Shown: positions 3,021 to 22,201 of the stretch, one piece after another
Layout of the letters: every line of letters begins with the position of its first letter
Position numbering within the stretch: the stretch's first letter is position 1
Assembly: GCA_902500705.1 (NCBI GenBank)
Contig: CABVRR010000001.1
Span: 5,968 to 46,187, forward strand
DNA: 40,220 nucleotides
Source: an uncultured Nitrospira sp.
Lineage (GTDB): Bacteria; Nitrospirota; Nitrospiria; Nitrospirales; Nitrospiraceae
Reading direction: 5' to 3'
Position numbers and translations under genes: made by a program
The notes under the pieces: model-generated
Told to the model about the DNA's origin: nothing
The model's database searches: none
Seen by the model: only the letters and a program-made list of their open reading frames with translations

Positions 3021-3707
3021 TTAGTCATCCTTTCGGCTTGAGATTCTTTTTTCCCACTGCGCATAGTATCTGGCTGCTTCCGATCTCCGTGAGATATTCA
3101 ACCGTTTATACACGGCTCTGAGGTGGGTCGTCATGACGCTGGGAGTAACATTCAGATCTTGTGCGATCTCTTTGTTGCTTTTTCCGGCTGCAATCAGTGC
3201 AAGGACTCGAAGATCGGGTTTTGAGCAACCATCCATGTGCTCGCATTGCATCAGTTGCTTCCCATCTCGAACCCAGGTGAGGAGTTGTGAGGTCAAGCGC
3301 TGATCCATCATGGCCTGGCCGTCTGCCAACACCTCAATGCTTTTGACAATGGCCTCCCTCGACGCTCCCTTCAACAGATACCCACGAGCGCCGGCAAGAA
3401 TAGCGGACCGTAGGACGGCCTTATCGTCATTCTCGGTAAAAAAGAGGACGGCGGCCTTGGAATAGGACTCACGAATAACTCGGCAGAGATCAATTCCGCT
3501 TGCCTTCCCGACTCGGACATCCAGCACCACGACATCCGGCTGATAGGCCTCCAGAAGCGTCAGGGCTTCATCTTCGCTTCGTGCGGTACCGGCGACAACG
3601 ACGCGATGACTCTTCGACACCGCCACCCGCAGCCCTGCAAGCACCAAACTCGAGTCGTCGATCAACACCACCTGTGCGCGTTCTCGTATTTGAAAAGATG
3701 GCTCCAT
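3021..3707 (-). CDS. LuxR/NarL-family response regulator
   Basis: The protein has 228 residues with the two-domain layout of NarL-type regulators. The receiver (about 12-128) has the acidic pair in VVLIDDSS, phosphoacceptor Asp63 (VVVLDVRVGKASG) and the conserved Lys in YLLKG. The C-terminal LuxR-type helix-turn-helix (about 160-220) contains LIAAGKSNKEIAQDLNVT and HLRAVYKRLNI. It is probably a phosphorylation-controlled transcription factor. ATG 3707 is preceded by AGGAAG; a GTG at 3710 is an alternative. It converges on the TonB receptor (26 bp between stops), and no kinase is adjacent. The receptor gene or the regulator's own promoter are natural candidate targets. The long gap on its 5' side carries repeats shared with the receptor's upstream region. 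Confidence 0.9.
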   Translation of the reverse strand: MEPSFQIRERAQVVLIDDSSLVLAGLRVAVSKSHRVVVAGTARSEDEALTLLEAYQPDVVVLDVRVGKASGIDLCRVIRESYSKAAVLFFTENDDKAVLRSAILAGARGYLLKGASREAIVKSIEVLADGQAMMDQRLTSQLLTWVRDGKQLMQCEHMDGCSKPDLRVLALIAAGKSNKEIAQDLNVTPSVMTTHLRAVYKRLNISRRSEAARYYAQWEKRISSRKDD

Positions 3708-4171
3708 CACTTCCTGTTTGGATCGGCAAGGACCGACGCGTGCAGCGTAGGTCTACACGGATGACTCATTGCATTCTTCAAGAGATGCGATGTGCTTGCG
3801 TGCGATTGCACTATACTTTCCAGAAAATAACGGGATTCAAGCTCATACCGCGCTACCGATATGCAAGTGGCATTCCCTGCGGAGAATGTGAGTGTTCTGG
3901 TGTAACTACTTATAATTTCATTTACTTGCTATCGGGCGATGAGCCACGGAAAGCTGAACAAGAGGTTGATAACTTGCGGATTTGCCTTGCACGCGAACCC
4001 TATTGCTTCGCCGCCTGCTTGCGCCGCATTGAAGAGCCAGTGTTGCAAAACTACTGGACGCACATGCAGAGGATCTGAGTGTATCGAAATAGATCCAGCA
4101 TCCAATTGGATTCACTTATTGTGGTGCAGATCTCAAACTCATTCCCTCTCTAGGACGGAAAACCTTCGGCA
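3708..4171. other. Intergenic region upstream of the LuxR regulator
   Basis: No convincing gene is seen. The gap lies between two minus-strand regulators and should hold the promoter of the one ending at 3021. It contains a diverged copy (4079-4116) of the palindrome found upstream of the TonB receptor, including CGAAATAGATCC (4085-4096) and the exact 12-bp palindrome ATCCAATTGGAT. Short open frames here show no family resemblance and no ribosome-binding site. Confidence 0.5.
4079..4116. repeat. Diverged second copy of the 656-688 palindrome region
   Basis: Aligned with 654-691, about 31 of 38 positions match, including GTGTATC at the left, CAGCATC in the centre and AATTGGAT at the right. 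The left arm has changed to GTATCGAAATAGAT, while the right half keeps the self-complementary ATCCAATTGGAT. Shared position relative to the receptor/regulator genes suggests a common regulator. Confidence 0.55.
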
Positions 4172-4894
4172 TCATGAGCCGCTACGAACCGTTGCTTTCT
4201 TACGCTGGACAGAAGAGAAAAAATACTGTGCGTGGATCAGAAGCTTCTGCCGATTAGACACTCCGACCTTGTCGAAAATATCGGTGAGGTGTTGACGAAC
4301 CGTGCTGTCTGAAATACATAACCGATCTGCGATGTCCTTGTTTGAAAGTCCTTGCCCCACTAACCGGATAATCTCCAGCTTGCGTTCAGTGAGTCCATCC
4401 GGCCACTCAGATGCCGGTTCCCTGGCAAGATCAACATTCTGTGCGGGGAGCGCCTTCCAATCAAGGTTCCTCACGTCTTGAGTCGTGATGAAATCATATT
4501 TATTTGCGGTAACGGATAGCGCGTCGATCGCCGCGAGCACGACGGCAGGAGGTTGAACTTTTAGAATGACACCGTCAACGCCGCAGGCAAACGCGTCACG
4601 CATGCGCTGCCCGTCTTCCAGCCCGCTCAACAACAGAATCTTGCTGTTCGGGGCTGATTCATGAATCTGATAAATCGTGCCGGTGACATCGAGCTTTGTC
4701 TCGATATCGAGAATGATGATGTCCGGCTGCATTTCTGTAAGGAATGCACCTGACTCGATCCTCCAATGCGATTGCGAGACGACCCTGATGTCTTTTCTGC
4801 ATTCAAACATGCGCTCAAATCCGAGTCTTACGAAAGGCTGATCACTGATAATCGCCATGATGAGAGCGGACAATGTTGCGTGTGTCTCTACCAT
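4172..4894 (-). CDS. LuxR-family response regulator
   Basis: The protein has 240 residues from ATG 4894, which has a good ribosome-binding site (AGGAG, 5 nt before the ATG). A longer frame to 4954 lacks one. The receiver is somewhat diverged: only one acidic residue is seen at the N-terminal pocket (IISDQP), while phosphoacceptor Asp63 (IIILDIETKLDVTG) and Lys in GVILK are kept. The C-terminal LuxR helix-turn-helix (about 165-225) has GLTERKLEIIRLVGQGLSNK, DIADRLCISDSTVRQHL and FDKVGV. It is divergently oriented from the decayed receptor at 5410, mirroring the regulator/receptor association to its left. The two regulators share the family layout but are not close duplicates. The cognate kinase and target are unknown. 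Confidence 0.88.
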   Translation of the reverse strand: MVETHATLSALIMAIISDQPFVRLGFERMFECRKDIRVVSQSHWRIESGAFLTEMQPDIIILDIETKLDVTGTIYQIHESAPNSKILLLSGLEDGQRMRDAFACGVDGVILKVQPPAVVLAAIDALSVTANKYDFITTQDVRNLDWKALPAQNVDLAREPASEWPDGLTERKLEIIRLVGQGLSNKDIADRLCISDSTVRQHLTDIFDKVGVSNRQKLLIHAQYFFSSVQRKKATVRSGS

Positions 4895-5409
4895 AAAGTC
4901 TCCTGTATAAGACGGACGACGGTATGCGCCCTGTGCGACACACCGGCTCACCACCCCTGCTACGCAAATAGCGTTCCACAGAGCTAAGTCTTTTTTGACT
5001 GGCTAGCCATAAAAAATTCGGCGTTGAACCTAATTTATCTTGCAGATTGCCGAGCTAGAATCATGCATGCTGCTGCGGGGCGCCTGAATCCAACCCCTTC
5101 ATCAGGAGAAGCGCAGCACACTTCAGATAGTCGCAGTAAACGAGTTAAAGACGCTCCTTCCGTCCTGTATCGAAATAGATACTACGTCAAGCTGGAGACA
5201 CGGCATCGAGGGAGAACACCGGCCAACCTGCTCACTTACGCATACAAATACTGTGCGTTCCTCATTGTAAATAATCTATTCATTCTTAGCGTAAATTCCC
5301 TAGTTTTACTTTTTAAGTCAATCGAATCTCTCCATTGGTATCTAAAAGATGCTGGAGCGCCGGTGCGTCCTGAATGTTCAAGCATCCGCACCAAAGAACC
5401 TCAAGTCGC
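4895..5409. other. Intergenic region between regulator and receptor remnant
   Basis: No supported gene is seen. This AT-rich stretch separates the divergent LuxR regulator and the remnant receptor, so it once had to drive both. It contains GTATCGAAATAGATAC (5167-5182), the clearest member of a short motif that also occurs at 901-912 and 4085-4096. Confidence 0.5.
5167..5182. promoter_or_regulatory. Candidate operator GTATC-N6-GATAC
   Basis: GTATCGAAATAGATAC has 5-bp inverted arms around a 6-nt spacer. Its right 12 bases recur as CGGAATAGATAC (901-912) and CGAAATAGATCC (4085-4096), each time upstream of a receptor or LuxR regulator gene. This is a candidate binding site by pattern only. Confidence 0.35.
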
Positions 5410-5915: not shown

Positions 5916-7274
5916 TTACCACCAATGCTCCACATGTGCGCCGAACGTCCACCCGGACGTCTCGGCTCCATACGGTGCATCTTCCGGTCCGTTTCCTACC
6001 AAGCCTTTGAAGCTCTGACTCCAGATCGCATGCGTGGCAAAGAGATAAAAAATGGGCCTCGCAAAAAACCTTCGATCCACCGAAAGCTGAAGACCGATGG
6101 TGGACTTTTGCACGCCGCCCGACCGATTCTGTTGTTGATCATGGACATAGTCATACCCGACTTCGCCGATCGCATTGACATAGTCTGAAAAAAAGTAGCG
6201 GACGTGCGCTCCCGTGGATCCCCAAAGCACGGATCGACCGGACGCCCCCTTCCGACCGAAACTTTCCAGACGGACGATGCTGCCCCATTGCAGCGCGAGG
6301 TTGAGCGAAGGGCATTCATACAGCAGATCATTATTGGCTTCCAAGGAATACGAATTTTTCAGGTCGTACCCTTGTCCCTCCTGGACGGGACGCGGATTAA
6401 ACGTGCCTTGCACCATGGCCGCTCCTTGACGAAACAACAGCGCAGAAATATTTCGGCTCCCATTCGGCAAATCGCGCTGAATCCACCCTCCAACTCCAAA
6501 TCCATACCGCTCAGAAAGGCCCAGTTCATCGGAACCATTTCGATGCGTCATATTCGCCCACAAGGCCAAGGTCCAGCCCTTGTCCAGCACTATCCCGGTA
6601 TACCGGATATCCAAGGCGCGTGCGTCCGTTCGTCCCAGTTCGCCTGCTTCCTTCAGAGAGGGCATCATTTTATCTTTGAGATGAAAGATCGCGATATTCA
6701 GGCGACCTGGACCAATCGCCATCTCCTCCACCCCCATTCCTGAATCAGCGTTTTGCCCCGCATTGAGCCAGAAGTGGTCGTTCAAGTAGATCAATCGTCG
6801 ATTATAGAAACGCCGCCCTGCCCAGAGATGGAAGCCTGCCCCACCGACATTGGCATATTTCACATAGAGTTCCGCGACATTATCCATACGAAACTCTTTC
6901 TCGATCTTGCCGTTAATGGCGTAATCATCCAGCGTGAATGCGGCTTGAAGAAACGACGGATTCTCCTGTGAGTGACGAAGAATATAGCGGTAATCCAACC
7001 ACAAAATGGCATTCATATCGGGCTCATTGCCCAACCGATACTTCGATTGGGCTCCAGGCGCGCCAAATGCGGCTTGTGCGTGGCCGCCTCGACTCCAACC
7101 CACTCCCGCCCGCATATATCCGTGAAATCCAACCTGATGATTGCCGATCTGAAGGTCCGTCCCCGATCGCTCATAGGCCTTAGTCGCTGACTTCCCATGG
7201 GCCACGGAACTAGAGAGGTGTACCACCACACTCAGTAGCAGCAGACTCCACAGACGAAACGCCTTGTTCGGCAT
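5916..7274 (-). CDS. LamB/maltoporin-family outer-membrane porin
   Basis: The protein has 452 residues from ATG 7274. A classical signal peptide (about 1-27, AFRLWSLLLLSVVVHLSSSV) precedes a mature beta-barrel. The start of the mature part (HGYMRAGVGWSRGG) matches the LamB/ScrY type, with further family-like stretches YVKYANVGG, LWAGRRFYNR and ALWANMTHRN. The C-terminal aromatic end (VEHWW) fits outer-membrane assembly. The open frame extends to 7409, but that extension lacks a ribosome-binding site and would bury the signal peptide. LamB-type porins pass sugars, typically oligosaccharides. It lies downstream of and on the same strand as the binding protein, permease and kinase-fusion genes, with a 176-nt gap. 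It may be their target or part of the same unit. Confidence 0.82.
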   Translation of the reverse strand: MPNKAFRLWSLLLLSVVVHLSSSVAHGKSATKAYERSGTDLQIGNHQVGFHGYMRAGVGWSRGGHAQAAFGAPGAQSKYRLGNEPDMNAILWLDYRYILRHSQENPSFLQAAFTLDDYAINGKIEKEFRMDNVAELYVKYANVGGAGFHLWAGRRFYNRRLIYLNDHFWLNAGQNADSGMGVEEMAIGPGRLNIAIFHLKDKMMPSLKEAGELGRTDARALDIRYTGIVLDKGWTLALWANMTHRNGSDELGLSERYGFGVGGWIQRDLPNGSRNISALLFRQGAAMVQGTFNPRPVQEGQGYDLKNSYSLEANNDLLYECPSLNLALQWGSIVRLESFGRKGASGRSVLWGSTGAHVRYFFSDYVNAIGEVGYDYVHDQQQNRSGGVQKSTIGLQLSVDRRFFARPIFYLFATHAIWSQSFKGLVGNGPEDAPYGAETSGWTFGAHVEHWW

Positions 7275-7450
7275 GGGGTGTACGGTGCGTGCGGGGAGGA
7301 CGGAGAAGACGTAAACAAAAACCAAACGAACCGGACTGAGCGACCAGGCGAGAGGGCCTATCCCGACGAATATCGAAAAAGCCTCTCGACCTTTCGTCCA
7401 TCGGGCCATATCGTACCGGCAATGAAGATCACAGCAGGACCCGAGAGAAT

Positions 7451-9775
7451 TCAGCTCAGGGAATGAGGTTGCCCCAACGCTTTCGTCAAGGCTTCAGAGA
7501 GCTCCTCAAGGCGAACCGGCTTTCGCAAAAATCCATAGATGCCCGTCCTTGTGATGTCATCTCCAAAATCAGACCGACGATACCCTGAAACGATCAAGAC
7601 CTTAACTCTCGGGCACAGAACACGCAATTGTTGAAAACAGGCATACCCTGACATCCCGGGCATCAAATCATCGAGCAGGACCGCGTCAAACAAGCCCTGT
7701 TGGGCATGAAACACATCGATGCATTCAGCTCCGCGTGAGGTCGACGTAACCTCGTACCCAAGTTCCTCCAACATGGACGTCAGCACAAACCGGATCCGGT
7801 CATCATCATCACAGATCAGAATTCTGGCCTGGCCGTGAGAGATAACCGGGGGCGTCGCAACGGGCACTACAGCAGGAGTGGCCTGAGAGATCGGAAACCG
7901 CAAGGAAAATCGCGCCCCTCCTCCAACGACATTTTGTACACCAATACTGCCGTTGTGCTCTTTCACCGTCCCATAGACAACCGACAAGCCAAGGCCATTG
8001 CCGCCACTTGCCAATTTGGTGGACACAAACGGCTCAAAAATTCGCTCGATGACATCCGAACGGACTCCTGGTCCGTTGTCCGTTATCGTCATTTCCAGCA
8101 TAGAGGGTTGAACGCCTCTGTCATTTTGAAGCCCATCTTCCGCGATCGCATTGGTCGTCGCAAAGAGCACCGTTCCGGCCTGAGCATCCACGGCATGAAT
8201 AGCGTTCAGTCCGATATTCACGACCATATTCTTCAACTCAGCGGCATCACCCAAGATCGTGGATTCCTGGGCTTTCAATTCCAGTCGCATCTCAACTTTT
8301 TTGGACGTGCCGCTGTGCAAAAGGGAGAGTGCGTCTGTGATCACGGCGTGCAGATCCACCCTCTGAAACGTGGTTGTTCCTTTTTGGGAAAAGCTGAGCA
8401 GTTTCCGCGTGAGGGTTTCGGCGCTGCCGGTTGCCCGCAAGATGATATCAAGAAATTGGGTCAGCGTCGGATCGATCATCTTTTTCTGGAGAACGGTGGT
8501 CGCGCCCTGAATAGCAAAGAGCGAGTTATTAAAGTCATGGGCGACGCCGCTGGCCATCATGCCCAATGAGTCCAACCGTTCTCGATGCTTGATTTCACTT
8601 TCTAAGTCGCGCTCCAGCAGGAGAGAACACACGGATGTCTCGAAATCACGCAGCAGCGCATTCAGAGGAAACTCGAACGGCAGCTCAGGCAGGATACATC
8701 CGAACACCGCAATAATCTTTGATGCGGCTCCTCGTTGCGCAAAGAATTCCGGAGCATACAGGAGAGAAATCTTGTACTCCAATTCTCCCCATCGGCACGT
8801 GTGACAACCATCGCTCTCTCCACGAAGAAAAGGTTGAACGGTCGTCTGCAAACGCTCGACGTCTTGCGGCGCGATCTGAGACGTATGATAAAAATGCTCA
8901 TTCTGTTGAAGATCGCGATACAGACAAAACATGGGCACATCTTTCCCCATAAATCTTGTGATGAGGCGGAAGACGTTCGTGATAAACACATCCGGTTGAT
9001 TGGCTTCATGTCGCTCACGATGGAGTTCGCGGCCGATCACCTTCCTGGCGTTGCTCGTACTGTTCACCAATCGACACTCGATGTCCAGAAGGCTCAAGGC
9101 GCTGGGATCTCCATAAAAGACTTTGCGCCCGCACGAAAGCAACAGCGTTCTGGTGCACACGGAGCGGATTTCCTGTAGTTTTCCGGTCGAAATGACCACC
9201 GTGACAGCCTGTTGCGTCAACACCTGTAATTTCTGCAAGACCCGCAATAAGGTCTTCTCGTCGAGGGCATCAAGCGTACGATCGAAGAGATACAGAGAGG
9301 CCGGGCGAAGAAGGGCACGGACGATCAAGGCGATCACACGCTCATGAGGCGACATCGTGTGACAGCTCTGATGCCAGACGAGCGGAGTATCCAATTCTTC
9401 ATACAGGTATTCAGCGCGTTGATACATCTCATGGTGATGCCGCAATTCCTTGCACCACGGTTGTGGAACTCCGAGGAACACGTTATCGAACAACGACCAT
9501 TCCGGGAAAAATCCCTTATCCTCCCACGTCACGGACACAGTGGGGAACTGCTTTGTTTTCCTGGCTCCGTCATACAGGACCGTTCCGATGGTCGGACGGA
9601 CTCGCTCAGCAAGCACTTCCAGGCATGCCGTCGTTTCACGAACATTGGTGCTGGCGATGCCCAGGATCGATCCTTGAGAAATCTCGAGCGTCAAGGAATC
9701 CAACAGAGGACGTCCCGATGCCTCCGACGCAACGGTGACGTTATTCAGTGCCATGGTGGGGCATGGCTTACCCAT
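7451..9775 (-). CDS. Degenerate ABC ATPase fused to histidine kinase and receiver
   Basis: The protein has 774 residues. Residues about 8-235 align with a sugar-type (RbsA-like) ABC ATPase, but the catalytic motifs are lost. The Walker A region reads GIASTNVRETT (39-49; no P-loop Lys). The signature is MSPHE (141-145). Walker B reads LYLFDR (161-166; Asp kept, catalytic Glu is Arg). The switch His is replaced by Thr (VVISTGKL). Residues about 255-390 form a linker of unclear fold. A kinase core follows: H-box GVAHDFNNS with His413, N-box NIGLNAIHAV, TDNGPG (565-570), GGNGLGLS (591-598). The C-terminal receiver (about 650-768) has CDDDD, phosphoacceptor Asp702 (LLDDLMPGMSG) and Lys752. The start overlaps the permease stop by 8 nt, which indicates translational coupling. 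I infer that the dead ATPase docks on the permease and relays ligand state to the kinase. Confidence 0.9.
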   Translation of the reverse strand: MGKPCPTMALNNVTVASEASGRPLLDSLTLEISQGSILGIASTNVRETTACLEVLAERVRPTIGTVLYDGARKTKQFPTVSVTWEDKGFFPEWSLFDNVFLGVPQPWCKELRHHHEMYQRAEYLYEELDTPLVWHQSCHTMSPHERVIALIVRALLRPASLYLFDRTLDALDEKTLLRVLQKLQVLTQQAVTVVISTGKLQEIRSVCTRTLLLSCGRKVFYGDPSALSLLDIECRLVNSTSNARKVIGRELHRERHEANQPDVFITNVFRLITRFMGKDVPMFCLYRDLQQNEHFYHTSQIAPQDVERLQTTVQPFLRGESDGCHTCRWGELEYKISLLYAPEFFAQRGAASKIIAVFGCILPELPFEFPLNALLRDFETSVCSLLLERDLESEIKHRERLDSLGMMASGVAHDFNNSLFAIQGATTVLQKKMIDPTLTQFLDIILRATGSAETLTRKLLSFSQKGTTTFQRVDLHAVITDALSLLHSGTSKKVEMRLELKAQESTILGDAAELKNMVVNIGLNAIHAVDAQAGTVLFATTNAIAEDGLQNDRGVQPSMLEMTITDNGPGVRSDVIERIFEPFVSTKLASGGNGLGLSVVYGTVKEHNGSIGVQNVVGGGARFSLRFPISQATPAVVPVATPPVISHGQARILICDDDDRIRFVLTSMLEELGYEVTSTSRGAECIDVFHAQQGLFDAVLLDDLMPGMSGYACFQQLRVLCPRVKVLIVSGYRRSDFGDDITRTGIYGFLRKPVRLEELSEALTKALGQPHSLS

Positions 9776-10766
9776 GGATGGGTTGCCTCTCTTCTTCGAT
9801 CTGATCCAGACTTCGTATGTGCCGAATGAGCAAGGTGTAGAGGATCAGGAAACCGGTCAGAAGAAAACGGGTGTTCGGCAACAGTCCTAAGACTTCAATT
9901 CGCGTGTAAATCTCTGCCAAGAGAAAGGTGACGACGACTAATCGAACCAGCGACGGCGCTCTCCGTTTTGTTCCCCCGTTACTGATGATGACGATCGCAA
10001 GCGCATCAAAGGGGATACCCACCCCAAGGTCAGGACTTACGGTCTGAAGGCGTGCGTAGTAGAGGACGCTCGCCATTCCTGCCATTTCAGCTGCAAAGAT
10101 AAACGCGCCAATCTTATACGGGCGAGTGCTCAGCCCACCGTCCTGAGCCGCACGGCTATCGATACCGATCGCCCGAATACTTCTTCCCCACGTACTGTGA
10201 TAGAAAAACGTGTGCAGACCTACGGTCATCCCCAGAAAAATCCACGTGGCAACGGGGAGCCCCAGGATCGACTGCCAGCCGATGGCATATAGCAGAGAGC
10301 CTCGTGGGTGCGCGGCATGGGTGATCGGCATGCCATTGCTCAGAAAACTCGCGATGCCCTGCAGGATAAACATCATGACAAAGGTGATGAGCAGTCCGGA
10401 ACGCAACGTGGCGGTAAACCACCCATTGACATACCCGATCAGACCGATCAGGCCGAAAACCAATAACCAGGTCAACAATGAGGGGATGAATCCCTCAAGA
10501 GAGGCCACGGCAATCAGGCAGAGGGCAAAGATCGATCCCACGGAAAAATCATATTCATTGACGTAAAAGACGACTAACACCCCTAAGGCAACGACGCCCA
10601 AGACTGAGGCTTTATACCCGAGTGCGACAAGGTCTCCGAACGTGAAAGCATGCGCGCCGATGTAGGACAAGACGGCGAGCGTGTTGGCCAGAACAAAGAT
10701 AATGACCCACTCTAGATAGGGAAAATTATTTCCTTGCGTACTCGGCATCACTGCACACCTCACCAC
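9768..10766 (-). CDS. RbsC-like ABC permease (membrane partner of the kinase fusion)
   Basis: The protein has 332 residues counted from GTG 10766, which overlaps the upstream stop. ATG 10748, with GAGGTG before it, is the other good start. It has eight to ten hydrophobic segments in the BPD_transp_2 pattern. Family landmarks are YDFSVGSIFALCLIAVASLE (canonical DLSVGS) and GIDSRAAQDGGLS followed by GIPFDALAIVIISNGGTKRR. The last stretch corresponds to the usual VIGGTSLxGG region and is altered. The protein sits in the inner membrane. In an ordinary importer it would be driven by an RbsA-type ATPase; here its only neighbouring ATPase domain has lost its catalytic residues and is fused to a kinase. 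It may therefore be a signal-transmitting channel relic rather than a pump, though pairing with an ATPase encoded elsewhere cannot be excluded. Confidence 0.88.
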   Translation of the reverse strand: MVRCAVMPSTQGNNFPYLEWVIIFVLANTLAVLSYIGAHAFTFGDLVALGYKASVLGVVALGVLVVFYVNEYDFSVGSIFALCLIAVASLEGFIPSLLTWLLVFGLIGLIGYVNGWFTATLRSGLLITFVMMFILQGIASFLSNGMPITHAAHPRGSLLYAIGWQSILGLPVATWIFLGMTVGLHTFFYHSTWGRSIRAIGIDSRAAQDGGLSTRPYKIGAFIFAAEMAGMASVLYYARLQTVSPDLGVGIPFDALAIVIISNGGTKRRAPSLVRLVVVTFLLAEIYTRIEVLGLLPNTRFLLTGFLILYTLLIRHIRSLDQIEEERQPIHG

Positions 10767-11911
10767 TCAGGGGGAGTGGATTGAGCATCTTCGGCAGACA
10801 ACACTGTTTGAGGGATTTCCACGAATTTGGGAACGTCCTCTTTTTTGAGGATCTTGGCCACGGTGACGATCGTTTGGCGACCTTCTTCAGCGACGGAAAA
10901 ATTTGTAGTGGATTGGGCGGTTCCCGCCATCAGTAACTTTTGAAGCTCGCGAGTGTACTCTAGACTGACAATTTTGACGTCGGTGACATGATTACTCTGA
11001 AGCGTATGGGCCGCTGCCGTGGCAGCTCCTGCCCATTGCGTGGCAATCACATCAAAGTCCAATTTCAAATCGAGGGCTTGCTGAACCTCGCGTTCGACGT
11101 CTGCGGCATCCCAGGCAGGAATCAGAATATCTTTCACAATAGTCCATTGTGGGTGCTTGGCCATGATCATCCGAAATCCCCGATCACGAAACCGTTGCGG
11201 GGGCGTTCCGGGTGCCCCTTGAATGAGTAAAATTTTTGGAGGATGCGGTAAGGCCAATTGCTCGATCGCCGTTCCTATCATTTGACCCGCCTTGACTTCG
11301 TCTCGTCCCACATGAGCCTGTACGCCATTGATCAGGCCGTGTGGATCATGCCCGATTCCATTGGTAAAGGTGATGAGCGGCAGGTCATGGTTTTCTACCA
11401 GCGTCGAGGCAACCATTAACGCTTCATTATTCACCGCGCAGAGCGCAATGGCCGCGATGCCATGCATGGACAAGACCTTTTCAAGCTGATGAATTTGCTG
11501 ATAGGAATCCCATCCCGCATTAAAAAAGAGCAGGTCAAAGGCATAGCCCTGTGCCGCTGTACGCATCGCTTCCCGTTCAAGCGAAAAAAATTCGACGGAC
11601 CCGGGCAGGAGCACGGCAATTCGCTTCCGATCTGTCGCTTCTGGACGGTTCCACTGATGAAAGATATTTGCCAGGACCAGCAGGATAAAGAGACAGGCCA
11701 TTCCGATGAAGAGGCCTTTTTCACCTATGTGTTGTCTTAATGCCCGTACACTGCTGAGGGGATAGTGATGCCAAGGAATTGGCTCAGGAACATCTCCTTG
11801 ATTGGTGGACCTACGTAAGCGAGCCATAGGTAATCGAGCACGCGTGATGGTCTGATGACCATGGGGCATGGAGGCTATGTGCGTTTCTCTAGCTAAAGAT
11901 TCCGACGTCAT
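10760..11911 (-). CDS. Membrane-anchored periplasmic sugar-binding-type protein (RbsB-like)
   Basis: The protein has 383 residues. About 65 polar, Arg-rich N-terminal residues precede one transmembrane helix (about 66-86, GLFIGMACLFILLVLANIF). A type I periplasmic-binding fold of the Peripla_BP_4 class follows (about 95-360: RKRIAVLLPGSVEFF, then repeated beta-alpha units such as HGIAAIALCAVNNEALM, PKILLIQGAPGTP and FDVIATQWAGAATAAA). There is no cleavable signal or lipobox, so the binding domain is tethered with a cytoplasmic tail, which is unusual for a transport binding protein. It is first in the minus-strand operon and overlaps the permease start. A good promoter lies at 11974-12001. Internal Met15 and Met29 are alternative starts. 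The ligand is probably a sugar by family, but this is not established. Confidence 0.85.
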   Translation of the reverse strand: MTSESLARETHIASMPHGHQTITRARLPMARLRRSTNQGDVPEPIPWHHYPLSSVRALRQHIGEKGLFIGMACLFILLVLANIFHQWNRPEATDRKRIAVLLPGSVEFFSLEREAMRTAAQGYAFDLLFFNAGWDSYQQIHQLEKVLSMHGIAAIALCAVNNEALMVASTLVENHDLPLITFTNGIGHDPHGLINGVQAHVGRDEVKAGQMIGTAIEQLALPHPPKILLIQGAPGTPPQRFRDRGFRMIMAKHPQWTIVKDILIPAWDAADVEREVQQALDLKLDFDVIATQWAGAATAAAHTLQSNHVTDVKIVSLEYTRELQKLLMAGTAQSTTNFSVAEEGRQTIVTVAKILKKEDVPKFVEIPQTVLSAEDAQSTPPEW

Positions 11912-12257: not shown

Positions 12258-13865
12258 ATGACATCCTCTCCTCATTCCGATCTCCCTCACGCGCCAATGA
12301 GCAATCGGCCCGAAGAGGCAGGGTGGTTTTCGAGTCACCTCATTGAGACCATGCCCGTTGGCGTCTGCGTCTGTGAGATGAACGGCTTCGTGGTGGCCTA
12401 TAATACACGCGCGGCCGAGCTGTGGGGCCAGACACCGCCGGTGGAGGGACCGGAGCGTGCCAAATATTGCGGTTCGAAAAACATCTGCCAACTCGATGGC
12501 ACCTTGCTGCGCCGTGAGCAATTCCCGGTTGTACAAGTACTGGCCGACGGACAGGCGCAACGAGATCTTCAGTTCCTGATCGAACAACCGTCAGGAGCCC
12601 ATGTGACGACCGTCGCCAATATCAATCCGATCCTGAATGCCGACGGAACTCAAATCGGAGCCGTGGTCTGTTTTCAGGATATCAGTTTCAAGCTCCGCTA
12701 CGAACAGCAGCAATTGGAATTGATGAGATCGCTCCAGCATGGCGCCAGACTGGCGGCCATCACCCACATGGCGGCTGAATGGGCGCACGACTTCAATAAT
12801 CTCCTGCATGGCGTCCGGTGGGGGCTCAATCTCATCCGGCGCCGGCTCGTGAGGGTGAATGATACTGACAGTTGCCAGGATGTCGATGTCGCCCTCCTAG
12901 AAATCAGCAAGGCCAAACCGCTCGTCCAGCAGCTTCTGACACTGGCGCGTGGATCATCCTCGGAGCAAACACCCTGTCCGGTCGATTCGACCGTGGTCGC
13001 CCTGGCCAACCTGATGCAGCATGTGCTTGGCCCGGACATCCGACTGACTCTTGATCTGAAGACCCCGGACGCGACGGTCCAGATGAACCGGAGTGTATTC
13101 GAGGATGTGTTGATGAATTTGTGCGTAAGTGCGCGTGAGACCATGCCGACCGGCGGTGAAGTCGTGATGGCCTCCCGCATGGACCTGACTCCCAGAGAAA
13201 CGCCACCAGACTTGATGGCTCCGTATCTCGCGCTCTCGGTCAGAGACAACGGCCGAGGCATGTCGCACGAGCAGTTGCGACTTGCCTTGGATCCGTCATC
13301 CTTGGGCAAACAAGGCTGCGAAAGTTCCATCGTAGGATTTGCCATGGCGAAGCGCTTTACGACATTATCCGGTGGAACCTTCGATCTCCGCAGTCAGAGC
13401 GAAACCGGCACCAATGCGACGCTGTTCCTGCCGGTGAGCAATCGGCTCGCATCACAACAGTCTCTCGACTGTGCACCGCTCGTCGAGCCGGAACAGCCGC
13501 ACCCGACCATCTCGTCGAGTCAACACCTTCGGATACTCCTGGTGGAGGACGATCTCAACATTCAACGCGGACTCACGGCCATGCTCCAAATATCCGGACA
13601 TGAAGTGATGGCGTGCTCATTGGGCGAAGACGCCATTGACATTCTTCGAAGTGAACAACCACTCGACCTACTCATTTCGGATCACGCCTTGCCTGGCACC
13701 TTACAAGGCACCGATGTGCTGGAGATTGCAGCGAGCCGACGTCGGGGTCTCAAAACCATCTTGATCACCGGGCTGCCTCCTCGTCATATCGCCCGAAATC
13801 GCTATCAGGTCCTGATCAAACCGTTCACGTTTGAAGAACTGGAGCAGGCCATGTTCACGACATAA
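12258..13865 (+). CDS. Soluble PAS-hybrid histidine kinase with C-terminal receiver
   Basis: The protein has 535 residues and no transmembrane segment, so it is cytoplasmic. A PAS-like sensor (about 28-145, ETMPVGVCVCEMNGFVVAYN) is followed by an H-box (WAHDFNNLLHGV, His177), an ATPase domain and a receiver (about 424-532: acidic LLVEDD, Asp475 in LISDHALPG, Lys521). The ATPase domain is irregular. The N-box reads NLCVSARETMP, with Ser291 where the Mg-ATP-binding Asn is expected. The G1 box is intact (RDNGRGM), but the G2 box is unrecognisable (ESSIVGFAMAKRF in place of GxGLGL). Kinase activity may be weak or absent, leaving a phosphatase or phosphotransfer role. The start is well supported by GGAGGT. 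It is divergent from the ABC-kinase operon and may act with it. Confidence 0.9.
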   Translation: MTSSPHSDLPHAPMSNRPEEAGWFSSHLIETMPVGVCVCEMNGFVVAYNTRAAELWGQTPPVEGPERAKYCGSKNICQLDGTLLRREQFPVVQVLADGQAQRDLQFLIEQPSGAHVTTVANINPILNADGTQIGAVVCFQDISFKLRYEQQQLELMRSLQHGARLAAITHMAAEWAHDFNNLLHGVRWGLNLIRRRLVRVNDTDSCQDVDVALLEISKAKPLVQQLLTLARGSSSEQTPCPVDSTVVALANLMQHVLGPDIRLTLDLKTPDATVQMNRSVFEDVLMNLCVSARETMPTGGEVVMASRMDLTPRETPPDLMAPYLALSVRDNGRGMSHEQLRLALDPSSLGKQGCESSIVGFAMAKRFTTLSGGTFDLRSQSETGTNATLFLPVSNRLASQQSLDCAPLVEPEQPHPTISSSQHLRILLVEDDLNIQRGLTAMLQISGHEVMACSLGEDAIDILRSEQPLDLLISDHALPGTLQGTDVLEIAASRRRGLKTILITGLPPRHIARNRYQVLIKPFTFEELEQAMFTT

Positions 13866-13947
13866 CGTGCGCCTCTCCACGCCTGACCGGAGATCACAGG
13901 GAACAGGACAACGAGCATGATCGGGAAAGAATGCAGGAGAGACGACC

Positions 13948-14349
13948 ATGAGTGAACCGTTACCACAATCGACCCAGGTGAGAATCTTAGTCGCCGATGA
14001 CAATGTCGATATCACGACAACCACCTCAATGCTGCTTGAATTGGAGGGGTATCAGGTGAAAACCGCCGTGACGAGCGCGGAGGTACTGTCGATCGCCGAA
14101 GAGTTTGCTCCTCACGTGATACTTCTCGACATCAAAATGCCTGGCATGGACGGATACGAAATCTGCCGGCGCATCAAATCGCACGACTGGGGCGCATCCA
14201 TTCGCTTAGTCGCACAAAGCGGATGGTCTCCCCCAGGCGAGCGGGAACGGGCGGCTAGGGCTGGGTTCAGCAGCTATTTGGCCAAACCCTATTCAGTCGA
14301 GGAGCTTCAAACGGCGATGCGCAATATTCTCGAGACCACCACTACGTAA
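13948..14349 (+). CDS. Single-domain response regulator (CheY-like receiver)
   Basis: The protein has 133 residues and is only a receiver domain. It has acidic ILVADDN, phosphoacceptor Asp61 (VILLDIKMPGMDG), a Ser in the switch position (AQSGW) and the conserved Lys in LAKPYSVEEL. A Shine-Dalgarno-like GGAGAG precedes ATG 13948. It lies 82 bp after the hybrid kinase in the same direction and is its most likely phosphorylation partner. No output domain is present, so it probably acts by protein contact or as a phosphate sink or relay. Confidence 0.9.
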   Translation: MSEPLPQSTQVRILVADDNVDITTTTSMLLELEGYQVKTAVTSAEVLSIAEEFAPHVILLDIKMPGMDGYEICRRIKSHDWGASIRLVAQSGWSPPGERERAARAGFSSYLAKPYSVEELQTAMRNILETTTT

Positions 14350-14763: not shown

Positions 14764-15405
14764 ATGCCTCAAACCTGCAGATGCCTCATCGTTGATGATC
14801 ACCCGATGATTCGCAAGGGAGTCAAGGGTCTGTTGCTGGAGGAGGAGCAGAACTTTACGGTCGCTGAGGCCGACAGTGCTGAAGCCGCCTTGGAGGCCAT
14901 TCGGCAAGAAAACTGGGACATCCTGATTCTTGATGTGTCGCTTCCCGACAAGCACGGCCTGGAAGTGTTGAAAGAGGCGCGTTTGCTGCGCCCGAGCTTG
15001 TCGGTGCTGATATGGAGTCAGTATCCTGAACAGGAGTTCGCGCTCCGCACGATCCAAGCCGGTGCAGCAGGCTATCTCTCCAAAGACTGTGCGCCGTCCG
15101 AGTTACTGGCGGCCATTCGACACATCACGTCCGGGCATCGCTATATCACGCACACATTAGCCGAAAATATCGTAGGGTTTATGAAGGATGGGCAGCCCGC
15201 GTCCCCTCATGATCGACTCTCCGACCGGGAGATGGAAGTGCTTCGGCTTCTTGGACAGGGTAAGACGGTTTCGCTGATTGCCGATGACATGGCGCTCAGC
15301 GTCAAGACGATCAGTACGTACCGAGCCCGGATTCTTGAGAAACTCAACCTCCACACCACCGCTGATTTGATACGGTACGCCATCAACCACCGGCTGACAA
15401 TCTGA
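14764..15405 (+). CDS. NarL/FixJ-type response regulator
   Basis: The protein has 213 residues. The receiver (about 5-125) has LIVDDHP, phosphoacceptor Asp57 (ILILDVSLPDKHG) and Lys in YLSKD. The LuxR helix-turn-helix (about 147-207) has LSDREMEVLRLLGQGKTVSL, ADDMALSVKTISTYRARILE and KLNLHTTADLIRYA. All phosphorylation residues are present, so this looks like a conventional phosphorylation-activated transcription factor. The ribosome-binding site is weak (AGAG). It belongs to the plus-strand signalling cluster that begins with the hybrid kinase, but a 414-bp gap gives it its own promoter region. Confidence 0.92.
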   Translation: MPQTCRCLIVDDHPMIRKGVKGLLLEEEQNFTVAEADSAEAALEAIRQENWDILILDVSLPDKHGLEVLKEARLLRPSLSVLIWSQYPEQEFALRTIQAGAAGYLSKDCAPSELLAAIRHITSGHRYITHTLAENIVGFMKDGQPASPHDRLSDREMEVLRLLGQGKTVSLIADDMALSVKTISTYRARILEKLNLHTTADLIRYAINHRLTI

Positions 15406-15625
15406 CACGTGACGCATTCCGGTTCCCACGTTTTCTACCACTCATTTCCTGTGTCGAGGCACTGAGGATCGGCTGTCCAAAGCCGATACGCGTCGGAGGT
15501 CCGCTGGGCCTTCCTTCATAGTGTCTTTGATTGTCAGACAAACACGGACATCTCCATCGCTAGTTATCTGATAGATCGTTCACATCCGAGCTTGTAGTGT
15601 CTCTCGCGAACAAGCGGATACACAC

Positions 15626-15985
15626 ATGCATGTTTTGATTACGATCAACCATCCTCCCCTCAGACACGCGATTCGAGCGGTCATCAAGGACGAGTTTCAT
15701 GCGTCAGCGGTTCAAACCGCCACGACCGAGCAGGACGCGCGTCATATCGTAAGCACGCCACACATCGATGGAGCAATTTTTCGCATCAGACTCTGGGAGC
15801 ACGGTGGGTTGAGGCACTTACGGCAGATAAAACACGTACAACCTTCCGTCACGTGCTTGGTGCTACACCTGGACGCCAGGCCTCACGACACATGGTGCGC
15901 CATGGTTCACGAGGCTTCAGGCGATCTCATTACAGGTGCCACTCCCGAAGAATTGCGCTCGGCCTTACGAGTGATGATGACATGA
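15626..15985 (+). CDS. Phosphorylation-dead receiver-like protein
   Basis: The protein has 119 residues and follows the receiver fold by pattern: MHVLITINHPPLRHAIRAVI for beta1/alpha1, IDGAIFRIRLWEHGGLRHLR for the beta3/alpha3 part, and ITGATPEELRSALRVM at the end. Every phosphorylation residue is missing. The acidic pair is replaced (INHP), the phosphoacceptor position is Arg53, and the conserved Lys is Thr103. There is no DNA-binding domain. It is either a pseudo-receiver that works by binding a partner or a truncated NarL-type regulator on its way out. The frame is intact and surrounded by regulators on the same strand, which favours a retained small protein. No good ribosome-binding site is seen. 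Confidence 0.65.
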   Translation: MHVLITINHPPLRHAIRAVIKDEFHASAVQTATTEQDARHIVSTPHIDGAIFRIRLWEHGGLRHLRQIKHVQPSVTCLVLHLDARPHDTWCAMVHEASGDLITGATPEELRSALRVMMT

Positions 15986-16300
15986 GGACTGTGGGAGCCT
16001 GCGGTAACCTTCTCACTCGTTCCTCGATATATCGTCACCTGAACTCGCTTCTCATCTTCACGTCTGTTCACACACAGTGTCTGCCCAATTGAGATGGCCT
16101 GACGTTAGGGCAGATCCCTGTGCAGAAAAGCATCGAGGCCCTACGATAGCAGCGGGTGACCCGCCAGATCAGCATAGGACAAACCCTGACATACTTTTCG
16201 GCTTCGAACTGATACCTAAGATTACTGTCTCTGGTACCGTTATGTACTGATACAAGCAGATGATGTGTGCTGATCATTCTTCCCACCGTAGGAGGCCCCC
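15986..16300. other. Intergenic region upstream of atypical LuxR regulator
   Basis: No gene is seen. It contains a near-continuous palindrome GCGGGT-G-ACCCGC (16152-16164) and ends in GGAGG 6 nt before ATG 16301. Confidence 0.4.
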
Positions 16301-17053
16301 ATGAGACATGACAATCTTGAGGACAGACGTACTGCCAGCCAGGAAACGTGGATGACCAATCATCCGATCTCTGGTCGCCATCCCATTCGTGTCTTGCTTG
16401 CGGAGAGCCGTGAAGTGGTACGGGCCGGCCTGCGTGCGTTTCTTCACGGTGAGGAATCCCTTGAGGTGGTCGGGGAGGCCGACAATGCGACCACCCTGCT
16501 GTCTCAATTACAACACACCAAGCCGGACGTCATCGTGCTGGAGTCTCAGCTGACCAGCGGAACAGACGCCGACACGTGCAAAACGCTGTTGAGCATTCTT
16601 CCGGCGACCCGGATCATTTTCATTGGGTCAAGCGACGGCCCAATAGGATTCCGCAAGAGGTTAGAAGCCGGCGCGCATGGTTTCCTGTTGACAAACATTC
16701 ATCGGGAAGAACTTGTTCAGGCCATTCACACGGTTGCCGAAGGAATCCCTTACTTGTGTTCCGAGGCCACCATTGAAACCTTTCGCCTCTTGAGACGTCA
16801 GCCAAGCGAAACTACCGTCTCTTCCCCCATACAGGCCCTGTCACCACAAGAGCAGCGGGTCATCGCGCTCATCGCCGAGGGATACACGAATAAAGAAATT
16901 GCCTCGAAACTGACCCTGTCGGACAAGACGGTCAAAAACTATGTTGCCAACCTCTATACCAAGCTGGAAATCGAACGCCGTAGTCAAGCCGCCGTCATTT
17001 ATGTCAAAGCTCAGTTCCAGGATGCGTCCATGAGTACGGGCGTTCGCGCATAA
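16301..17053 (+). CDS. Atypical NarL-type regulator with Asp-to-Glu receiver site
   Basis: The protein has 250 residues, and GGAGG sits 6 nt before ATG. About 28 extra residues precede the receiver (about 29-150). The pocket is altered: the acidic pair is Glu35-Ser36 (LLAESREVV), the phosphoacceptor position is Glu81 (DVIVLESQLTSG) and the conserved Lys is Thr131 (FLLTN). The LuxR helix-turn-helix (about 180-240) is well preserved (LSPQEQRVIALIAEGYTNKE, then KLTLSDKTVKNYVANLYTKL). The DNA-binding part should work, but control by aspartyl phosphorylation is unlikely. Glu can mimic a phosphorylated Asp, so the protein may be constitutively active or controlled another way. A single-domain receiver follows 16 bp downstream, probably cotranscribed. 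Confidence 0.9.
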   Translation: MRHDNLEDRRTASQETWMTNHPISGRHPIRVLLAESREVVRAGLRAFLHGEESLEVVGEADNATTLLSQLQHTKPDVIVLESQLTSGTDADTCKTLLSILPATRIIFIGSSDGPIGFRKRLEAGAHGFLLTNIHREELVQAIHTVAEGIPYLCSEATIETFRLLRRQPSETTVSSPIQALSPQEQRVIALIAEGYTNKEIASKLTLSDKTVKNYVANLYTKLEIERRSQAAVIYVKAQFQDASMSTGVRA

Positions 17054-17897: not shown

Positions 17898-18863
17898 ATG
17901 CTCTACGTTCTGGTGCTTCTCTCTCTGATCTGGGCCACACCGCCTATAATCCCAGCGAGCGCAGCAGACATTGCCATCCTCAGCTCTGCACAGTTGCCCT
18001 ACTACGAGCAAGCCGTTCTGGGTTTCAAAGCGGGCATCCCCACTGCGACCAAAGTAAGAGAATACAACCTTGACGGTCGGCTCGCGCGAGGACGAGAGAT
18101 CGGCAAGGCATTGCGTGCCTCTCCACCTGATCTGGTTCTTGCCGTCGGGCTCAAAGCAGCCATAGCCGCCAAACTGGAGATCTTCGATACCCCGGTTGTG
18201 TTCTGTTTGGTCCTCAATCCCGAAGCCCATGGACTCCCCGCCTCCAACATGATCGGGATCGCTGTCCGGACATCTGCGGATACGCAACTCACCGCACTTC
18301 GCTCCGTCATGCCTGGTCGTCATCGGATCGGTGTGCTCTATGACAACGAACTCAGCGGACACTTCATCCGCGACGCACGTCGGGCAGCCCACCAGCAGGG
18401 ACTGGAGCTCGTCGCGATGGCGATTCGCAAACACGACGACATTCCCAAAGCGGTTCGAGCACTACTGCCCACTATTGATGCACTCTGGTTGATTCAGGAT
18501 CAAACCGTCATTTCGGAATCGGCGATTCCATTTTTTCTGGAAACGACGTTGGAAGCGAAAGTGCCGCTCTTCACCTTTTCATCAACCTTGGTCCAGCAAG
18601 GCGCCGTCGGCGCGTTGGTCGTTGATGCGTGGACTGTCGGACAGCAAGCCGCCCGCATCGCTCAATCACGGCTCAAGGATTCCCGTACCGCCATGGGTTC
18701 CATGCAGATCCCCGATCGCCCCCAACTCGCCGTGAACTTACACTCCGCCGAATATCTAGGTCTTACTCCGTCCCCCGATGCGATTCGCCTTGCCGGCCAC
18801 GTGTTCGGCGGACCGGGAGCCCTGGCCAAGAAATCCGGTTCATCATGGGAATTAATTCCTTAA
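17898..18863 (+). CDS. ABC_sub_bind-family periplasmic binding protein
   Basis: The protein has 321 residues. A signal peptide (about 1-22, LYVLVLLSLIWATPPIIPAS then AA) precedes a two-lobed binding fold of the ABC_sub_bind/TrpX type: DIAILSSAQLPYYEQAVLGF, PPDLVLAVGLKAAIA, the TPVVFCLVLNPEAHGL segment, then HRIGVLYDN and VPLFTFSSTLVQQGAVGALV in the second lobe. In other bacteria this family includes tryptophan-type and other small-molecule binding proteins with ABC permeases. Here no permease or ATPase is adjacent. The next gene, 51 bp on, is a membrane histidine kinase, so a role as ligand sensor is more likely than transport. Confidence 0.85.
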   Translation: MLYVLVLLSLIWATPPIIPASAADIAILSSAQLPYYEQAVLGFKAGIPTATKVREYNLDGRLARGREIGKALRASPPDLVLAVGLKAAIAAKLEIFDTPVVFCLVLNPEAHGLPASNMIGIAVRTSADTQLTALRSVMPGRHRIGVLYDNELSGHFIRDARRAAHQQGLELVAMAIRKHDDIPKAVRALLPTIDALWLIQDQTVISESAIPFFLETTLEAKVPLFTFSSTLVQQGAVGALVVDAWTVGQQAARIAQSRLKDSRTAMGSMQIPDRPQLAVNLHSAEYLGLTPSPDAIRLAGHVFGGPGALAKKSGSSWELIP

Positions 18864-18914
18864 GCCCTAGCTCACAGTGAACCGACCGCTGTCACGGTCT
18901 TGAGATGAACGGCA

Positions 18915-20705
18915 ATGAGTAGACTCCACAATCCGACTCGCACTCCGTTTTCCATCAGCCTGAGAACGAAACTGCTCCTCAGCATTGCGCTGATTCTGAC
19001 CGTAGCCTGCCTCCTCTTGAGCTGGCTGTTTATTCGACAGCAAGTTCGATCGGTTGCCGAAAGTTTGGCACACAGCGGAACCCTGCTCGCACAACACTTG
19101 GCGCATATGGGCCGATTCAGCATCGTGGCAGGCGATACGCATCGCTTGGATCAGTTGGTTCAAGAAATTATCGAGGTCGACCCGGTCGTCTACGCGGCGG
19201 TCATGTCCTCCGACGGAGAACTCCACGCAGGTTTGGGAAAAGGCATATGGGCGCAGCAGTTCTCCACTCAGCCAGGGGGTCGACGTGAGTTTTCATTGAA
19301 CTCGATGACGATCCCTCCGCATCTGCGCACCGAGACTGAGGAGTCACTCGTCAGCGCCGTCCAGTTCAATGGCGACCTGCCCCAATTGCGTCACAGAATC
19401 GAATTTACGCTAGGAGAATTAGCACGCATCGTGGGAGGATTCGAGTTGTCCATCGTATACGACGTCATTGTGCGAATCCCGCAACGCCCGTTCATGACTG
19501 TGCGCGACCCCGCCCTCAGTCTGACACTCGACGAACGATTGGATGGCTCTCAAGACAGTGGGCTGCCTGGCAATATGGCTCCAGTCCTGGTACAGATCGG
19601 ACTCTCGACAACACACCTCCAACATGCGCTACGGAAATTGTTGTGGCAGGCGGTCGCGATTACTCTCAGCATTATTGTTGTCGGCCTCCTGATCGCCTTG
19701 TTATTGGCCAGACGGATCACCACGCCGTTGCGAGCGCTGATAGGAGCGGCCACCCGCCTCACCGCCGGAGAAACCGTCCCACCCGTCACAGGCCGCACCG
19801 GTGATGAAATCGGCGCCTTGACCGACGTCTTTAATGCCATGACCGAGACATTGCAGTCCCGCGAACACGAGCTCCGCGAGCTGACCCATACCTTGGAAGG
19901 CCGCATCGACGCCCGGACCAAAGAGTTGCTCGCGGCGAATGTCAAGCTGCAAGAGCTTGATCGACGGAAATCGTTCTTTGTCTCCACGGCCTCACACGAA
20001 CTCCGCACGCCGCTCACCTCCATGAAAGTCCACTTAGCGAATCTACGGGATGGAGTAGATGGAACGATCACCGGCGATCAACGACGCTCGCTTGTGCGCA
20101 TCGAGGCCAATCTCTCTCGTCTTCAGATCTTAATCGATGAGCTGTTGGACCTTTCCCAAATCGAGATGGGCCAAGCCACACTGCGTTTGGAGCCGGTGAT
20201 GGTCGGAAGCGTGATCGGCAAAGCCGTCGAGGATCTTCTCTCATTCGCGTCCGACCGGCAAGTGAGAATCGTGATCACGCTCCCGTCCAACCTTCCCATG
20301 GTGTCCGCTGATCCCGACAAGTTGCACCAGATCGTCCTCAATCTTCTCCACAATGCACTCAAATTCAGCCCCCCGCAGTCGACGATCGATATCATGGTCA
20401 CCCTCTTACGGAGCGGCGAGATTCAAATCTCGGTGCAGGATGCAGGTCCGGGCCTCGCTCCTGAGGAGATTGCAAAGGTCTTTCAACCGTTCTATCGTGT
20501 GCTTGGAGGCCCAAAACAGGCAAAAGGGGCTGGGCTCGGTTTGACGATCGTCAAACTCCTCGTCGAGCTCCATCACGGCCGACTCTGGGTCGAAGCGGCC
20601 CTCGGCAAAGGAAGCTGTTTCTCTGTTGCACTCCCTTCAGTGGCACCCCAAAAAGGATTGCCGTCTCTTCAGGTCGTCCCTTTTTCGGAAACGCACGGAG
20701 TGTAA
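18915..20705 (+). CDS. Membrane sensor histidine kinase (HAMP-HisKA-HATPase)
   Basis: The protein has 596 residues. Transmembrane helix 1 (about 19-41) and helix 2 (about 242-265) enclose a periplasmic sensor of about 200 residues. HAMP (about 266-318) is followed by a coiled linker, then an H-box (FVSTASHELRTPLTSMK, His361) and an ATPase domain with N-box LNLLHNALKFS, QDAGPGL and KGAGLGLTIVK. All kinase motifs are intact. It should autophosphorylate in response to a periplasmic signal, perhaps delivered by the binding protein encoded just upstream. The sigma-54 response regulator that converges on it (7 bp between stops) is the likely partner. Confidence 0.93.
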   Translation: MSRLHNPTRTPFSISLRTKLLLSIALILTVACLLLSWLFIRQQVRSVAESLAHSGTLLAQHLAHMGRFSIVAGDTHRLDQLVQEIIEVDPVVYAAVMSSDGELHAGLGKGIWAQQFSTQPGGRREFSLNSMTIPPHLRTETEESLVSAVQFNGDLPQLRHRIEFTLGELARIVGGFELSIVYDVIVRIPQRPFMTVRDPALSLTLDERLDGSQDSGLPGNMAPVLVQIGLSTTHLQHALRKLLWQAVAITLSIIVVGLLIALLLARRITTPLRALIGAATRLTAGETVPPVTGRTGDEIGALTDVFNAMTETLQSREHELRELTHTLEGRIDARTKELLAANVKLQELDRRKSFFVSTASHELRTPLTSMKVHLANLRDGVDGTITGDQRRSLVRIEANLSRLQILIDELLDLSQIEMGQATLRLEPVMVGSVIGKAVEDLLSFASDRQVRIVITLPSNLPMVSADPDKLHQIVLNLLHNALKFSPPQSTIDIMVTLLRSGEIQISVQDAGPGLAPEEIAKVFQPFYRVLGGPKQAKGAGLGLTIVKLLVELHHGRLWVEAALGKGSCFSVALPSVAPQKGLPSLQVVPFSETHGV

Positions 20706-20712
20706 CCGACTG

Positions 20713-22104: not shown

Positions 22105-22201
22105 GGTCTCTTCACTCGGACAAGCTTCGCAAGGCGTTATTGTAGTGGAATCGAGAGGTGAAGGGAAAGTATGACGACGACCGGTCTCTTGCAAACTCTA
22201 T

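Follow-up and report, generated by a model that had tools for sequence, protein, structure and literature searches.

A sugar ABC importer probably converted into a ligand receptor in Nitrospira, with a degenerate ATPase domain fused to a hybrid histidine kinase

We describe a gene cluster of an uncultured Nitrospira sp. in which a sugar ABC importer of the CUT2 type has probably been turned into a ligand receptor, with a pseudo-ATPase domain that would link the permease to a histidine kinase (Table 1). We also favor, with somewhat more reserve, the fuller reading that transport has been abandoned and that a complete ABC importer now serves as a transmembrane sensor in which the pseudo-ATPase is the adaptor between permease and kinase.

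Gene organization and distribution of the cluster

The window (the whole stretch of 40,220 nucleotides that was analyzed) contains the three overlapping minus-strand genes that a sequence-only reading of this DNA had reported, and the open reading frames match in their coordinates. Pfam domains confirm its description of an RbsB-like substrate-binding protein (SBP), an RbsC-like permease and a chain that joins an ABC domain to a kinase and a receiver. The SBP and permease are thus encoded together, as in CUT2 importers. Adjacent frames overlap (SBP and permease by 7 bases, permease and fusion by 8), which suggests translational coupling. As a description of the locus, the trio stands; what had been omitted is the same-strand LamB porin gene just downstream.

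Table 1. Coordinates of the cluster and of the domains of the fusion protein within the window
Feature	Position	Strand	Description
SBP gene	10760-11911	-	383 aa, RbsB-like; Peripla_BP_4, 99 bits (Pfam)
Permease gene	9768-10766	-	332 aa, RbsC/AraH-like; BPD_transp_2, 86 bits (Pfam)
Fusion gene	7451-9775	-	774 residues; ABC_tran, HisKA, HATPase_c and Response_reg in one chain (Pfam)
Pseudo-ABC domain, fusion residues 1-230	9086-9775	-	Related to NBD1 of CUT2 ATPases (LsrA/AraG/RbsA type)
Most conserved pseudo-ABC stretch, residues 92-104, EWSLFDNVFLGVP	9464-9502	-	11/13 invariant
GAF-like middle domain, residues 231-385	8621-9085	-	AlphaFold and Foldseek; long helix to DHp
Histidine kinase DHp and CA, residues 386-640	7856-8620	-	AHDFNN class, NtrB/CckA-like
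C-terminal receiver, residues 645-774	7451-7843	-	Asp702 and Lys752 intact
LamB-family porin gene	5916-7409	-	191.5 bits (Pfam); 41 bases downstream of the fusion gene

The same order of SBP, permease and fusion genes recurs in two other genomes: that of the uncultured Nitrospira sp. RBC069 MAG (locus L051), from the same genus, and a 98% complete genome from another family of the order, on a 3.77-Mb contig (locus L052). Identities to the window, for L051 and L052 respectively, are 77 and 37 to 38% for the fusion, 83 and 43% for the permease, and 76 and 43 to 45% for the SBP. Because three separate assemblies, representing two families, carry the trio, the fusion is not an assembly join, an objection that the sequence-only reading had itself raised, and a chimera is excluded. 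The cluster is rare, and a search of 236 genomes from the order recovered the fusion in 3. The SBP, sought in 396 genomes of the phylum, was found in the same three, with one further, distant match (E 1.5e-5); among 198 phylum genomes, permease matches with E below 1e-170 are confined to the three that bear the fusion, the next best being 1.7e-21. Both genes adjoin the fusion in all three members, and the expected conservation of SBP and permease with the fusion therefore holds.

The homologue set consists of three members, two of them from one genus. A scan of public genome contigs for further members returned only the RBC069 MAG and ordinary ABC ATPases; plasmids likewise yielded ordinary ATPases only, and viral contigs none. 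No members were found in samples of 349 and 398 Pseudomonadota genomes, with few candidates scored in each, or in samples of 60 Bacillota genomes and 60 genomes from the phylum of G492. Since genomes were sampled and few candidates were scored per genome, absence outside the phylum is not proved.

Flanking genes differ among the three genomes, and no conserved neighboring response regulator was found as an output partner. Four NarL/LuxR-type response regulators lie within 14 kb in the window (3021-4954 and 14764-17053); they are possible output regulators for the fusion, but none was seen near it in L051 or L052. Immediately upstream of the SBP gene are a divergent PAS-HisKA-HATPase-REC hybrid kinase and a single-domain receiver (12258-14349), a pair that is not conserved at the homologous loci of the other two genomes. 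The window also holds a second SBP-plus-kinase set (17898-22194), comprising an ABC_sub_bind protein, a HAMP histidine kinase and a convergent sigma-54 response regulator; the adjoining SBP and kinase suggest another SBP-dependent sensor. Upstream of the SBP gene at L052 is a 517-aa Peripla_BP_5 protein of the urea/amide-binding type (L052:11664-13217), which has no obvious signal peptide and bears Cys pairs in a C-terminal extension. TonB receptors near the locus in the window and L051 were rejected as close orthologues (27% identity).

The degenerate ATPase domain

ABC_tran matches the window fusion at 26.9 bits (Pfam cut-off, 25) and the two homologous fusions at 43.1 and 35.4 bits. Alignment with E. 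coli RbsA NBD1, the motif reference and a check that had been proposed earlier, reveals motifs that are degenerate throughout. The Walker A motif GENGAGKST has become STNVRETTA in the window, SANPRETTT in L051 and SENPDESSA in L052, with every glycine and the lysine gone in all three (in the window, Lys to Thr48). In the same order, the Q-loop Gln is replaced by Glu, Glu and Gly, and the signature LSIGDQQ by MSPHERV, LSPQERV and MSRKERV. Walker B DE reads DR, DR and NG, so that the Asp is also lost in the distant homologue; in the window, DEPTDAL has become DRTLDAL, with Glu replaced by Arg166. The switch His is Gly, Glu and Glu (in the window, ISH to STG, with Gly198).

The losses on which the sequence-only reading rested, of the P-loop Lys, Walker B Glu and switch His, thus recur in all three members, and neither homologue retains the Walker residues whose presence would have spoken against a sensor. 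The decay is greater than it had stated, with the signature and Q-loop lost too. A CUT2 importer has at least one NBD with intact Walker A, Walker B Glu, signature and switch His, which none of the three fusions provides, and a tandem-NBD ATPase of about 500 aa, in place of which we find a single NBD fused to GAF-HK-REC. Judged from its motifs, the pseudo-ABC domain would not hydrolyze ATP.

Among the best NCBIfam matches of this domain is the N-terminal half of CUT2-class ATPases (LsrA, B6, AraG, YtfR, AlsA, RbsA), with other NBD families scoring alongside them; the apparent CUT2-type affinity matches the class of the permease. Matches to the CFTR NBD1 profile were discounted as general NBD similarity. 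Neither the near-complete L052 genome nor the window genome yielded a tandem RbsA-type ATPase, although the latter, at only 86% completeness, could still encode a separate ATPase that escaped detection. The L051 genome has one 554-residue tandem-ABC match, 27% identical and with stops inside it, which is probably an ABC-F protein, given its size and low identity.

Conservation within the pseudo-ABC domain peaks at residues 92 to 104, where 11 of 13 positions are invariant among the three members versus 70 of 230 for the whole domain; when the domain was shuffled 20000 times, this level was reached 110 times. The shared sequence, SLFDNxFLGVP, lies just past the Q-loop. In ABC transporters, the region after the Q-loop touches the coupling helices of the permease, and this stretch is the expected permease-contact site.

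Membrane components, middle domain and kinase

The SBP begins with a 65-residue N-terminal extension followed by a strong hydrophobic helix at residues 66 to 84. Hydropathy places this transmembrane helix in all three members, which bears out the tethering proposed for the window protein; the helix looks uncleaved, and the SBP would be membrane-anchored. Among solved structures, ribose/CUT2 binding proteins lie closest to it. Of the RbsB pocket, F16 and R141 are retained, N190 is replaced by W, D215 by E and Q235 by F or S, and the comparison at N13 and D89 is unreliable owing to nearby alignment gaps. A ribose receptor is unsupported, as most RbsB ligand positions differ. Judging from this partly kept, partly changed pocket, the SBP likely binds a sugar or a comparable polar solute, though probably not ribose. 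LamB porins were found in 2 of the 236 genomes of the order, in both cases adjoining the fusion (window and L051), and the third member, L052, has none. Porin and fusion probably share an operon.

The permease holds most RbsC-family landmarks. Its coupling region, G-R...A.G...G....KI, is shared with E. coli RbsC. Conservation in this region (15 of 30 positions) does not significantly exceed that elsewhere in the permease (P 0.14). Where RbsC has its GGTSLAGG loop, the region is shorter and altered. Residues 252 to 272 (PFDALAIVIISNGGTKRRAPS), which correspond to this loop (four residues longer in RbsC), are themselves strongly conserved, with 17 of 21 invariant.

The retained landmarks, and an operon porin that suggests uptake, would suit a transceptor, in which the SBP and permease still transport through a separate ATPase or residual non-canonical activity while the pseudo-ABC-kinase monitors them. 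Shared ATPases of the MsmK/MsmX type energize importers encoded elsewhere, and other single-NBD ABC ATPases do occur in these host genomes. However, no tandem CUT2 ATPase was found there, the natural docking site would be occupied by the pseudo-ABC domain, and the changed loop region also argues against continued transport. We consider a transceptor unlikely.

Between the ABC domain and the kinase lies a domain absent from the sequence-only reading. Fusion residues 228 to 400 have no Pfam match; an AlphaFold model of the middle domain (mean pLDDT 69.5) matched the Aquifex NlhH1 GAF domain in Foldseek (TMq 0.64), as well as GAF-like LuxR-type ligand domains. The domain is predicted to be GAF-like and to close in a long helix leading into the kinase. 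Modeling of the complete fusion with AlphaFold, using three sequences, gave a poor result (pLDDT 47.9). Ligand binding is common among GAF domains, and this one could be the true signal input of the fusion. The position of this domain, next to the kinase, would fit a cytoplasmic sensor in which the ABC-like domain, the GAF domain or both detect a nucleotide or small molecule off the permease, the SBP and permease forming a separate transporter of low activity. Yet no P-loop remains for nucleotide binding, conservation peaks at the permease-contact stretch, the permease would be left without an ATPase, and the genes overlap and are co-inherited in all three genomes. The GAF-like region is moreover the least conserved domain of the fusion (26 of 155 positions invariant among the three members), and this speaks somewhat against a common cytoplasmic ligand at that site. 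We regard such a sensor as more doubtful still.

The signaling modules are intact, as had been claimed. All three kinases keep AHDFNN, GPG and GLGLS (in the window, H413 and the N and G boxes), and all three receivers keep LLDDLMP and KP; the fusion thus has the H, N and G boxes and receiver Asp and Lys of a hybrid histidine kinase. No transmembrane helix was found in the fusion, and it is therefore the permease that should connect it with the membrane.

Compared between the two Nitrospira genomes, the pseudo-ABC domain has a dN/dS of about 0.33 (dN 0.187, dS 0.563); the corresponding approximate ratios are 0.18 (middle domain), 0.21 (kinase), 0.09 (receiver), 0.14 (permease) and 0.24 (SBP). 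Purifying selection acts on all domains, pseudo-ABC included; the dead ABC domain is maintained, less tightly than the others. A pseudogene is excluded by these ratios and the intact frames. That the cluster is a decaying importer whose ATPase was fused to a kinase by chance and has no present function is very improbable: the pseudo-ABC is the least constrained domain, but dN/dS is well below 1 throughout, frames and kinase motifs are intact, and the fusion is conserved across families at about 38% identity.

Proposed signaling and relation to known systems

In the receptor that we favor, the ligand, probably carried across the outer membrane by the LamB porin in the two Nitrospira genomes, would load the anchored SBP, which would dock on the outer side of the permease dimer. 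On the inner side, the coupling helices would grip two pseudo-ABC domains; histidine kinases are dimeric, so one fusion dimer would supply exactly two ABC domains for the permease pair. SBP docking would shift the permease and move the pseudo-ABC pair, and this movement, passed along the GAF/long-helix linker, would switch the kinase between kinase and phosphatase states. Phosphate would then pass from H413 to D702 and on to some Hpt or regulator. We infer both the docking of the fusion on the permease and the ligand-dependent control of the kinase from sequence.

This receptor reading draws on the trio conserved in three assemblies, with no strong SBP or permease match away from the fusion, and on the loss of ATPase motifs where kinase and receiver motifs are retained. 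Purifying selection, the conservation peak at the permease-contact stretch and the coupling region shared with RbsC also speak for it, as do the soluble fusion, the lack of any tandem RbsA-like ATPase among those found, the anchored SBP and the cluster-limited LamB. The sensor interpretation of the sequence-only reading is supported: neither an assembly join, nor homologues with Walker residues, nor neighbors that fail to accompany the fusion, each of which it had named as fatal, was found.

RbsABC and other CUT2 importers have homologues of the SBP, the permease and the (NBD1-type) ABC domain, likewise encoded in one operon, but their tandem-NBD ATPase is active, their SBP is soluble and periplasmic, and they have no kinase. 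In LuxP-LuxQ and TorT-TorS, a periplasmic protein of the RbsB family controls a hybrid histidine kinase, and our SBP has a weak TorT match. Those kinases, however, have transmembrane and periplasmic sensor domains of their own, without a permease or ABC domain. BceA is an active ATPase. The BceAB transporter acts as a co-sensor of the histidine kinase BceS (PMC3023708); unlike our cluster, it is a resistance-type transporter with a large extracytoplasmic loop, no SBP and a separate intramembrane-sensing kinase, whereas here a BPD_transp_2 permease accompanies a degenerate ATPase fused to a soluble kinase. CbrA has been called a rare transceptor (PMC13022988), and CrbS is likewise a transporter-kinase fusion (PMC5715377), with a hybrid kinase. 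In both, as in our fusion, a transporter-derived module feeds a histidine kinase; theirs is an SLC5 secondary symporter-STAC module in the same polypeptide, with transmembrane helices and neither SBP nor ABC domain. The Kuenenia ammonium sensor histidine kinase Ks-Amt5 (PMC10433425) similarly joins a transporter fold to a kinase for signaling, but the fold is an Amt channel, the kinase is fused to the membrane protein itself, and there is no SBP or ABC domain. Our fusion has no transmembrane helix and no SLC5 or Amt Pfam domain.

CbrA, Ks-Amt5 and BceAB-BceS are functional relatives, none with the architecture of this cluster. We found no description of an ABC ATPase-histidine kinase fusion with an SBP and permease in the open-access literature (subscription papers were outside our scope), and therefore class the cluster among transporter-derived sensors as a new variation. 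When an importer also serves as a sensor, sensing is usually bound up with transport, which makes readouts of flux and of binding hard to separate. Here hydrolysis has apparently been removed, so the conformational signal of an SBP through an ABC permease would be isolated. If the receptor reading is true, ABC permeases can act as ligand-gated signal transducers without ATP hydrolysis, and the fusion would be a natural pseudo-ATPase adaptor, offering a modular route from sugar-binding proteins to two-component signaling. It would also bear on which organic solutes Nitrospira detect.
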